Below, piece by piece: positions 7,748-62,122 of a DNA stretch of 64,000 bases; positions within the stretch are counted from its first letter, which is position 1, and each line of letters starts with the position of its first letter. A program made the translations under genes and the position numbers. Source of the stretch: an uncultured Mucilaginibacter sp. (lineage in GTDB: Bacteria; Bacteroidota; Bacteroidia; Sphingobacteriales; Sphingobacteriaceae); NCBI RefSeq assembly GCF_913773635.1, contig NZ_CAJYGQ010000006.1, positions 62,001 to 126,000 on the forward strand. Reading direction: 5' to 3'. Under the pieces are notes generated by a model. It made no database searches and had not been told where the DNA came from. It saw nothing but the letters and a program-made list of their open reading frames with translations.

Positions 7748-8599
7748 TTACAATATAATCTTCTCAATAGGCATTACAACAATGCCCTGTGCACCGGCTT
7801 GTTTAAGCTGGCTTATGCGGCTCCAAAAGTCGCGCTCGGGTATTACTGTATGTACCGCCACCCAATCTTGCTCCGCTAGTGGCACTACTGATGGGCTTTT
7901 AACACCCGGCAAAAGTTCAAGTATCTTTGGTAAATTCGCACGCTCGGCATTTAATACAACGTATTTAGTCTCTTTAGCACGTAATACCGATTGTATACGC
8001 TGAATTAACTCCTGAATCAAATCATCATTTTCTGATCCAGGTCTGCCTATCATCACCGCCTCGCTCGACATTACATCGGCAAACGGTCTCAGTCCGTTAC
8101 TTTTTAACGTTCCACCGGTTGATACCAAATCGCAAATAGCATCACTCAATCCTAAGCCCGGCGAAATTTCAACCGAACCTGATATGGTTCGAATTTCGGC
8201 GTTAATATTAAGGTTTTTTAAGTATTTGCTGAGGATGGCAGGGTAGGTGGTGGCTATGGAGCGGCCGTTGAGGTCGGTAACACTTTCGATGCTGGTATTG
8301 TTGGGTACTGCTATTTTAAGCGAGCATTTACCAAAACCCAGGCGTTGCAAGTAACTTACTTCAACTTCTGTTTCCTGTATTACGTTTTCGCCCACTATGC
8401 CCAGGTCGGCAATGCCATCCTGTACGTATTCGGGTATATCATCGTCGCGCAAAAACAGAATTTCCAGCGGGAAGTTAGATACCGGCGATATTAACGAGCT
8501 TTTATAATTTTCGAAGTTAAGGCCGCAATTCTTCAGCAGCTCTACAGATTTTTCATTGAGCCTTCCAGACTTCTGGATAGCAATTTTAAGTGTTTTCAC
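7748..8599 (-). CDS. hisG: ATP phosphoribosyltransferase (long form)
   Basis: LKIAIQKSGRLNEKSVELL, DLGIVGENV, CDLVSTGGTLKSNGL; C-terminal regulatory domain present. Confidence 0.96.
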   Translation of the reverse strand: MKTLKIAIQKSGRLNEKSVELLKNCGLNFENYKSSLISPVSNFPLEILFLRDDDIPEYVQDGIADLGIVGENVIQETEVEVSYLQRLGFGKCSLKIAVPNNTSIESVTDLNGRSIATTYPAILSKYLKNLNINAEIRTISGSVEISPGLGLSDAICDLVSTGGTLKSNGLRPFADVMSSEAVMIGRPGSENDDLIQELIQRIQSVLRAKETKYVVLNAERANLPKILELLPGVKSPSVVPLAEQDWVAVHTVIPERDFWSRISQLKQAGAQGIVVMPIEKIIL

Positions 8600-8667
8600 A
8601 AAGTTGGGGGTATTAAACTATAAAATAAACGGAGGTTTGTTATTTCACGTAGAAACATACATCAATA

Positions 8668-8721
8668 TTATCGCCACAGGGGGCGATGGATATGCAGATG
8701 ATGTTTGTTGAAACCGTTCAT
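8668..8721 (-). CDS. Candidate histidine-rich leader peptide MNGFNKHHLHIHRPLWR* upstream of hisG
   Basis: Manual translation of the minus strand between promoter and hisG: atg aac ggt ttc aac aaa cat cat ctg cat atc cat cgc ccc ctg tgg cga taa. Four His in six codons, about 25 nt downstream of the predicted TSS. Confidence 0.75.
   Translation of the reverse strand: MNGFNKHHLHIHRPLWR
8670..8687 (-). promoter_or_regulatory. Hairpin at the end of the his leader ORF
   Basis: ATCGCC-CCCTGT-GGCGAT on the minus strand: 6-bp perfect stem overlapping the last codons and stop of the leader ORF. Confidence 0.6.
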
Positions 8722-8752
8722 TTTTTATAGCTAACGTTTTGATGAGCTGGCG

Positions 8753-8782
8753 CAAATATAAATAGTTATTTAAAATTTCAAA
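8753..8782 (-). promoter_or_regulatory. Bacteroidota-type promoter of the his operon
   Basis: Minus strand TTTG (8782..8779), 18-nt spacer, TATATTTG (8760..8753), matching the TTTG/TAnnTTTG consensus. Confidence 0.75.
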
Positions 8783-8975
8783 ATGAAAGTTTAAATGTTG
8801 ATGCATTTTAAGGCATTACAGCTTTACTCGCCTGCGTAAAGCGTTGGGCCATTGTGTGGAAATAAAATCGTTAGCAGCTGTGATATTTATCAAATTTTAA
8901 TATTTAATACACTATCTTAGGCATCCAAGCCCATAGCCTAAAATTAATTAATTGCCGTTAACCAAACCTTTACCT

Positions 8976-11330
8976 ATGAAATTAGGAGCAATACGTATAG
9001 CCATTATTTATATAGTGCTTGGCATAATTTGGATAGCCGTAAGCGATAGATTGCTCTCTGTATTTCAGGATGACTTTTCTCCGGCTGCATATCATTTTAT
9101 AAACTTAGTAAAGGGGATACTTTATGTTTTGATAACAGGTGTATTGCTTTGGAAACTCATTAAAAACGATGACCAACGTTTAACCGAGAGCGAAAAGCAA
9201 TACAGGGAAATTTATGCAGGAAATCCGTTACCGATGTGGATTTATGATATTGAGACATTCAAATTTGTGTCAGTAAACAAAGCGGCCGTACTTAACTATG
9301 GTTACTCTGCACAAGAGTTTTTGAATATGACCATCTTTGATATTCGCCCACCTGAAGAACGGGATAAAGTTCTGCAATCGGTTAAGAAGGTTTCAAAAGA
9401 GATCAGGCATTCAGGTACATGGATACATAAAAAGGCGAATGGCGAACTAATTTACGTAAATATCACTTCGCAGCAGGTGACCTTTAGCGGCAAAATGCAC
9501 GTTATAGTTATAGCGCAAGATGTGAATAAGCATGTTTTATATGAGCAGCATCTTAGCCGTTTAAACGCCGAATTGCTAAATAAGCAAGGTAAACTCACCG
9601 AAACACAGTTGATTGCAAAGGTGGCGGGGTGGGAGTACTATCTGAAAGAAAAACAGATGGTTTGGAGCGATGAACTTTTTGTTTTGACAGAAAGGACGCC
9701 ATTGCCCAACCAAAATTTATGGGAAACGTATTTGAATTTAATACACGCGGAAGACCGGGATAAGTTGAGCCAGGCAATTGAAAAGCTCATTGATACAGGA
9801 GAGGAGATAAATATTACATTTCGCATTACACCGGTTGATAATAAAATATGTTATGTACGGCAACAGGCTAAGCTGGAATTTTTAAACGGTGAAGCGCATA
9901 AAATAACAGGCACCATGCAGGATATAACTGAATATAAGGTGCTGGAAATTGAACGCAATAAATATCAGTTTAATCTTGAAGATACCCTCAATTCTATGAG
10001 CGAAAGCTTTTTTGCTTTGGATGCTGAACTTAAGTTTGTGAAGGTTAACGCAAAGTTTGAGGAAGAAACAGGATTTACTTCTGCAGAGGTTGCCGGAAGG
10101 TATTTGCTTGATGTATTTCATGAAGATAAGGAGGAAAGTGCCTGCAAGCAATTCAAAGATGTTTTAGCTAATAAGCAATCGCGCCGGTTTGAAGATTATG
10201 TAGAAAGTTTAAAAAAGTGGTTGTTCTTTTCCGTTTACCCAACAGAAGACGGACTTGCCGTATATTTTCAGGATATCACAACTCAAAAAAAGAAAGACAT
10301 TCAACTCAAGCAGGCCTTGGAGCGTTATCACATAGTGCTTAAAGCCACCAATGATGTTATTTATGATTATGACATGGTTCATAACAACATCATTTACAAC
10401 ACAAGTTTAACCCACCTGATAAAGTGCGATCTGCGTAAAATAAACTATGACTTGCACTGGTGGCGTTCGCTCATTCACCCTGATGATTTACCTTCAGTTG
10501 TAAGCAGTCAGAACAAGGTGCTCAAAAACAAGGAGACCAACTGGTGGTGTGAATACCGCATTGATTGCGGCAACGGTGAATACAAGTATGTTTACGATCA
10601 GGGATATTTTGTATATAACGATGGAGCGCCCGTAAGGCTGATAGGCGCCGTAAAAGATATTGATGAGTTAAAACGATCGAACGAGGAAAACAAACGCCTA
10701 GCCGATATTATCACTAAAGTTAACAACATGGTGATAGTAATGGATGCCGATAACCGCATTGGCTGGGTAAACAAGGCCTTTGAAGATTATGCAAACCTGC
10801 CTGTGGAGAAGCTCCTTAATAACAATGCCGATGATGTGCTGAATGCCTTAGGAGTATCACGCGATACTATCACAATGATTAATGATCGGAAAGCAAAACT
10901 TGAATCTTTTTTTGTTGAAATAGCCCATTATTTGCCTGGTGCAGGCAATCAATGGCTGGAAATCGAATACACGCCTTTGTTTGATCATACGCAAAAGCAC
11001 AAAGGTTATATTGCCGTGCAGCAAAACATTACCAGCCGTAAGGAAAAAGAAGAACGTGTAAGCAAACAGAATAAAATATTGCAGGAGATTGCCTGGCTTA
11101 GCTCGCATGAGGTGAGGAGGCCTGTTGCCTCCATACTAGGATTAGCTTATCTGGCAAAAGATGCGCTCAGTAAGGAAGAGCGCGACGAGATTATTAACAT
11201 GATAAACCAATGTGCCGGCGAACTGGACAGCATTGTTCACGTAATTTCTGCAAGGGTAAACGAGGATGCCGACCTTACCTCCGCCGCCGGCGCTTCCTCT
11301 GGTGGTGGCGAAACAAATTCGCTCAAATAG
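8976..11330 (+). CDS. Multi-PAS sensor protein ending in a HisKA-like DHp segment, no HATPase domain
   Basis: N-terminal TM segments, several PAS/PAC-like units, C-terminal WLSSHEVRRPVASILGLAYLAKDAL H-box; the ORF ends ~60 aa later. The ORF track begins at 8952; MKLGAIRI at 8976 is an alternative start. Confidence 0.8.
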   Translation: MKLGAIRIAIIYIVLGIIWIAVSDRLLSVFQDDFSPAAYHFINLVKGILYVLITGVLLWKLIKNDDQRLTESEKQYREIYAGNPLPMWIYDIETFKFVSVNKAAVLNYGYSAQEFLNMTIFDIRPPEERDKVLQSVKKVSKEIRHSGTWIHKKANGELIYVNITSQQVTFSGKMHVIVIAQDVNKHVLYEQHLSRLNAELLNKQGKLTETQLIAKVAGWEYYLKEKQMVWSDELFVLTERTPLPNQNLWETYLNLIHAEDRDKLSQAIEKLIDTGEEINITFRITPVDNKICYVRQQAKLEFLNGEAHKITGTMQDITEYKVLEIERNKYQFNLEDTLNSMSESFFALDAELKFVKVNAKFEEETGFTSAEVAGRYLLDVFHEDKEESACKQFKDVLANKQSRRFEDYVESLKKWLFFSVYPTEDGLAVYFQDITTQKKKDIQLKQALERYHIVLKATNDVIYDYDMVHNNIIYNTSLTHLIKCDLRKINYDLHWWRSLIHPDDLPSVVSSQNKVLKNKETNWWCEYRIDCGNGEYKYVYDQGYFVYNDGAPVRLIGAVKDIDELKRSNEENKRLADIITKVNNMVIVMDADNRIGWVNKAFEDYANLPVEKLLNNNADDVLNALGVSRDTITMINDRKAKLESFFVEIAHYLPGAGNQWLEIEYTPLFDHTQKHKGYIAVQQNITSRKEKEERVSKQNKILQEIAWLSSHEVRRPVASILGLAYLAKDALSKEERDEIINMINQCAGELDSIVHVISARVNEDADLTSAAGASSGGGETNSLK

Positions 11331-61797: not shown

Positions 61798-61870
<73 letters not shown>

Positions 61871-61911
61871 ATTGAGATAATAAAAGCTCCTCTTTGCAGA
61901 GAAGCTTTTTG

Positions 61912-61997
61912 TACTCGGGGCGGGAATCGAACCCGCACTCGCTTTAAGGCGAACAGGATTTTAAGTCCTGCGTGTCTACCAGTTCCACCACCCGAGC
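61912..61997 (-). tRNA. tRNA-Leu (TAA)
   Basis: Minus strand gctcgggtggtggaactggtagacacgcaggacttaaaatcctgttcgccttaaagcgagtgcgggttcgattcccgccccgagta; long variable arm, anticodon TAA. Confidence 0.95.
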
Positions 61998-62049
61998 AGG
62001 TGATTAACCTTTTAAACAAATTCCTGCTATGGTAGCAGCAGAAACCTGG

Positions 62050-62122
<73 letters not shown>

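Follow-up and report, generated by a model that had tools for sequence, protein, structure and literature searches.

In enterobacterial hisL, the position of the ribosome on a run of His codons sets alternative folds of the leader RNA, and in translational attenuation of the ermC type a ribosome stalled in the leader frees a downstream start. In Actinobacteria, the LEU element of leuA is a terminator-less leader peptide, whose codon run is predicted to pair with a downstream Shine–Dalgarno box (PMC1262725). For Bacteroidota, sORFs in long 5′UTRs of Bacteroides are reminiscent of attenuation leaders (PMC7366714), and a Flavobacterium psychrophilum transcriptome study reports indications that amino-acid operons are attenuated by leader peptides, as well as a structured 5′ element before hisG of Flavobacteriaceae with no Rfam hit (PMC9723704). 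A paper on the superphylum's his genes covers the attenuation known from enterobacteria, and a text search of it returned no mention of leaders (PMC8305728). We found no published work on his leaders of Sphingobacteriaceae; most subscription literature lay outside our search, and an earlier Bacteroidota catalogue may exist. Here we suggest that the his leader in the window (the whole stretch of 64,000 nt of DNA analysed, from a Mucilaginibacter genome) is probably an RNA switch that responds to histidine through a leader peptide and has no intrinsic terminator.

In the window, hisG (8599..7748, minus strand, GTG start; 99% identical to the closest record, from M. aquatilis) is the first gene of hisGDCBHAFIE, and it is preceded on the same strand by a hisL-like leader peptide gene, MNGFNKHHLHIHRPLWR (8721..8668), which is conserved before hisG. 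This ORF has 17 codons with an ATG at 8721, His at codons 7, 8, 10 and 12, and a TAA stop at 8670..8668, 68 nt upstream of the hisG GTG; the short leader thus carries repeated codons for the very amino acid that its operon makes. When all ATG-started sORFs of 8–45 aa on both strands of the whole window were counted, at least four His in six codons occurred in 2 of 1128, one of them being the leader directly before hisG. A Bacteroidota-type promoter was read from the sequence at 8782..8753 (minus strand), with TTTG at 8782..8779, an 18-nt spacer and TATATTTG at 8760..8753, from which we infer a TSS near 8748. Coordinates and His codons of the ORF are exactly those given by an initial annotation of this DNA, which had also reported this promoter and had regarded a TSS downstream of 8721 as evidence against the leader; such a TSS is unlikely because 149 of 152 Sphingobacteriaceae loci carry TAnnTTTG ahead of the leader ATG (median distance from its last G, 32 nt). 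Divergent from the his operon, a 792-aa ORF (8952..11330, plus strand) looks like a multi-PAS sensor, with a promoter region that could overlap that of his. Elsewhere in the window, three consecutive tRNA genes lie at 61798..62122 (minus strand).

Upstream regions of hisG were then gathered from 80 named genomes, genus genomes, and samples of the family and of the class. A His-rich leader peptide precedes hisG in 152/155 Sphingobacteriaceae loci; nearly all are 15–24 codons long, and in 116 codon 7 is the first to encode His. In Mucilaginibacter the peptides are typically of the type MNGxxLHHLHLHHHHxVVIR, and in other genera of the family FTHHVHFHHRHCGDR. The hisG start itself is GTG or TTG in 140 of the 152 loci. 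Among Bacteroidia outside Sphingobacteriaceae, 28 of the 33 loci sampled have at least three His in eight codons before hisG (MKTTSHTHHHVCTPIR and MKKHLHIHHHAVPQG are examples), indicating that control of his by leader peptides is very common across the phylum, and His leaders also occur at several phylum-level loci outside class Bacteroidia. The conservation of the short ORF and its His codons in relatives, on which the initial annotation had made its proposal of a his-responsive leader depend, thus holds across family and phylum and lends the proposal support at the level of sequence. The window leader matched no Rfam family at gathering score, His_leader included, and at E ≤ 5 its sole match was an unrelated sRNA (E = 1.1); 20 class-level leaders likewise gave no relevant match at gathering score. 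Together these data indicate leader-peptide control of histidine synthesis throughout Bacteroidota that is absent from Rfam. In one genus (g5, loci L120–L122), the leader has up to 11–12 His in ∼24 codons (MITKQHIALHHHTHLHHGHHHHCA), no P2 hairpin (see below) is recognisable, and hisG is 117–122 nt off, which is probably a third architecture.

The initial annotation had seen no strong terminator before hisG and suspected a non-canonical output. This is borne out by comparison within the class: an intrinsic terminator between leader and hisG was found in 0 of 58 dereplicated Sphingobacteriaceae loci, whereas a strong one is present in 26 of 33 loci of other Bacteroidia, often as GGCTTACC..GGTAAGCC followed by T's, and together with a leader in 24 of 33. 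In the class-level loci having both His leader and terminator, a simple exact-match search found an antiterminator in just 9 of 35. Before trpE, the genome to which the window belongs carries the Trp leader MNAKLNNLTWWHLSNKAAWFVY with a classical terminator (L221; G000:C11, upstream of 250314). A WW leader was seen in 15/15 Mucilaginibacter genomes examined (no relevant Rfam match at gathering score for four trp leaders), and in this genus a strong stem of the CCGGC type and a T-run come after the peptide. Since the classical terminator-type leader is retained at trpE, terminator loss is specific to his. The His-rich leader of this soil bacterium is apparently a starvation sensor without its relatives' usual stop-transcription signal. 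Three other His leaders (L179, L184 and L279) end in HHSS with no terminator found, possibly an independent terminator loss; in L179 and L184 the final leader codons enter a perfect TTCCTCC/GGAGGAA hairpin.

When the window leader was folded, 8735..8612 lay within one continuous imperfect hairpin, hereafter the rod, of −31.8 kcal/mol (z = −4.33 versus shuffles, none of which was equally stable). Its 5′ arm consists of the leader 5′UTR, the start codon, codons 1–6 and the first His codons, and its 3′ arm in Sphingobacteriaceae runs from P2 to ∼12 nt before hisG. From the base inward on the minus strand, the 5′UTR right before the leader ATG (P_ext, 8735..8724) pairs with 8624..8612 (MFE fold; swap tests z = −7.9 and −8.4); AUGAACGG, covering the start codon and codons 2–3 (Pa, 8721..8714), pairs with CCGUUUAU at 8632..8625; codons 3–5 (Pb, 8713..8709) pair with the loop and 3′ arm of P2 at 8647..8643, which excludes P2; and codon 6 with the first His codons (P0, 8706..8697) pairs with 8663..8653, overlapping the window P2 5′ arm, the last three helices being placed by swap map and fold. 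In the window, the 3′ arms of Pa and P_ext (8632..8612, minus strand; swap tests and fold) stop 12 nt short of hisG; across Sphingobacteriaceae this gap is often about 10–16 nt, except in genera g4, g5 and g13. In the weak AAAT.AAAC/GTTT.ATTT fold at 8614..8642, noted previously, the pairing does exist, but it is not conserved, and it was dropped as the alternative structure; P2 (8656..8642) matters instead.

Conservation of the rod was assessed with an alignment-free swap test, in which 5′ windows anchored on the leader ATG were paired with 3′ windows anchored on P2, from the same or from other species. In Sphingobacteriaceae, cognate arms pair better than swapped ones, mainly along a clean antidiagonal of the map (z down to −8.4, with values averaging close to zero over the rest of the full map), as a long hairpin predicts: the 5′UTR at −18..−6 partners with P2 +28..+45, the start codon with +16..+24, codons 2–6 with P2 +4..+12, and the first His codons with −12. 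The signal persists when each genus contributes a single sequence (z = −7.4, n = 16), in Mucilaginibacter alone (−5.1) and when that genus is left out (−6.8). Pooled, the remaining cells of the map gave −3.5, −0.7 and −4.0, respectively, so that outside Mucilaginibacter the signal is in part diffuse. The outer helix P_ext, in a separate swap test, gave z = −7.9, a value that none of 20000 permutations equalled.

At the rod tip is P1, ATCGCC/GGCGAT (8687..8670, minus strand; arms 8687..8682 and 8675..8670; 140/143 loci), whose 5′ arm starts within the last His codon and whose 3′ arm overlaps the first stop-codon base. This is the 6-bp hairpin that had been annotated beside the His run; it is present, but only as the tip of the leader-long rod. 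In Sphingobacteriaceae it alternates with ATCACC/GGTGAT, a compensatory change on both sides by which an Arg codon becomes His. P2, GUUUC-UACGU-GAAAU (8656..8642, minus strand), is the alternative to the rod; its conserved form in the family is GUUUC-UACGY-GAAAY, the loop being U-A-C-G-Y in most loci. The P2 stem is fully complementary in 143/143 loci where it was located, although the location pattern itself favoured stems, and better support comes from the variants GTTTC/GAAAC, GTTTC/GAAGC, GCTTC/GGAGC and GTTTTG/CAAAAC, which retain a UACGY or UACKU loop. Because the P2 arms are used by the middle section of the rod (by Pb, and in the window by P0 too), rod and P2 are mutually exclusive, and thus the codon run takes part in one of two competing folds. 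P2 was also considered as a second coding unit (ATG TTT CTA CGY GAA), which was rejected as L138 and the g12 and g16 variants lose this reading and keep the stem.

The P2 dyad could instead be a DNA or protein-binding site, for a repressor or an RNA-binding protein, with the ORF incidental. Its loop and arms are indeed unusually invariant, and the motif is essentially single-copy per genome, before hisG. On the other hand, one site per genome makes a regulator less likely, P2 variants lose sequence yet keep pairing, and a frame-specific His run, written with both His codons and found in many families of the phylum, would be left unexplained; we regard this possibility as very improbable. The copy number also led us to reject a multi-site operator: beyond the single motif per genome, only two further sites turned up, second copies elsewhere in two genomes (G181:C60:11973-11987 and G103:C121:27284-27298).

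How a leader-peptide switch of this kind would work can be outlined as follows. With ample His-tRNA, the first ribosome would complete the leader and depart, and the rod would zip up, burying the leader's own start so that a second ribosome could not load, and shutting the stretch immediately ahead of hisG and its weak GTG/TTG start, which would turn the operon off. With scarce His-tRNA, the ribosome would wait at codon 7 or later and cover codons 1–6 and the 5′ arms of P0 and P1; the rod could then not form, P2 would fold, the region upstream of hisG would stay open and hisG would be expressed. As the rod buries the leader start too, the decision may fall once per mRNA.

In a two-state model of this scheme, applied to 39 loci with hisG close by, a stalled ribosome is assumed to separate the arms. 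With a ribosome on a His codon, the opening cost of hisG −30..−5 then drops from 5.9 to 2.8 kcal/mol and the P2 probability climbs from 0.24 to 0.76, and the rod lifts the opening cost of the leader start from 5.0 to 9.6; for the window alone, the P2 probability in the stalled model is low (0.16). If pairing across the ribosome is permitted, i.e. the ribosome is only an unpaired stretch, accessibility of hisG is unchanged, and hence the mechanism depends on separation of the arms by the ribosome. In g4, g5 and g13, where hisG lies 106–319 nt from the leader and starts with ATG, the model gave no fall in opening cost, and owing to this distance closure of the hisG start by the rod cannot work alike there. 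The g4 loci (L116–L119) have extra sequence between rod and hisG, 50–220 nt before hisG, which starts CATTGAAACC or CATTGAACC, and looks like the old hisG start, with hisG beginning at a downstream ATG. A GGTTTCA-like stretch further down can pair with this sequence in an additional hairpin.

For the output of the switch, we favour a translational one, with polarity as consequence, judging from the position of the rod end 12 nt from hisG, the weak hisG starts, the conservation of P_ext past any U-tract and the scarcely enriched T-runs; the distant hisG with ATG in g4, g5 and g13 weakens this reading. The same switch might instead act by Rho-dependent termination: with no ribosome on the His codons, Rho would load between P2 and hisG, where the RNA is C-rich and G-poor. 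The linker after P2 has 30% C and 10% G, no intrinsic terminator is present in the leader, and Rho would function even with a distant hisG (g4, g13); but the linker is short and partly within the rod, and P_ext, conserved past it, would have no obvious role, which makes Rho a rather unlikely, if still serious, candidate. Less probable again, we think, is transcription attenuation with the rod as an unusual intrinsic terminator, its start-codon stem being followed by a U-rich stretch. While the stretch after the start-codon partner is 52% T and true terminators occupy the same place in other Bacteroidia, runs of at least five T's occur in only 24 of 46 loci, barely over shuffles (4.63 versus 3.99), the stem base has a C-rich bulge, and P_ext is conserved past the would-be stop point.

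The comparison across the class indicates that Sphingobacteriaceae left terminator-based attenuation for another output and kept the sensor. A stronger version, which we put forward tentatively and at somewhat less than even confidence, is that the family swapped the phylum's canonical his terminator-attenuator for a terminator-free one-shot switch, in which the leader gene itself supplies the 5′ arm of the off-structure and, once the first ribosome has gone, the rod keeps leader start and hisG alike closed for as long as that mRNA lasts. The his leader of Sphingobacteriaceae thus offers a natural case of attenuators changing output, and the presence of his and trpE leaders in the same Mucilaginibacter genomes makes both outputs comparable in one cell.

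Compared with described systems, the Sphingobacteriaceae leader would be a variant of the known leader-peptide attenuator design without an intrinsic terminator. Like enterobacterial hisL (Rfam His_leader), it places a His-codon leader peptide before hisG, and the position of the ribosome would choose between alternative RNA folds; unlike hisL, it lacks an intrinsic terminator, uses its own ORF as the 5′ arm of the off-structure and has no Rfam match. From ermC it differs in that the stall, caused there by a drug, would here come from missing aminoacyl-tRNA, and in that the operon is biosynthetic. With the Flavobacteriaceae hisG element (PMC9723704), the window leader shares phylum and gene, and the contrast is that other Bacteroidia leaders here are terminator-type and those of Sphingobacteriaceae are not. 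With the LEU element (PMC1262725) it shares regulatory codons in a leader peptide and the missing terminator; that element, however, belongs to Actinobacteria, reads Leu and forms a pseudoknot, whereas the window leader reads His and its pairing covers the leader start codon and 5′UTR.
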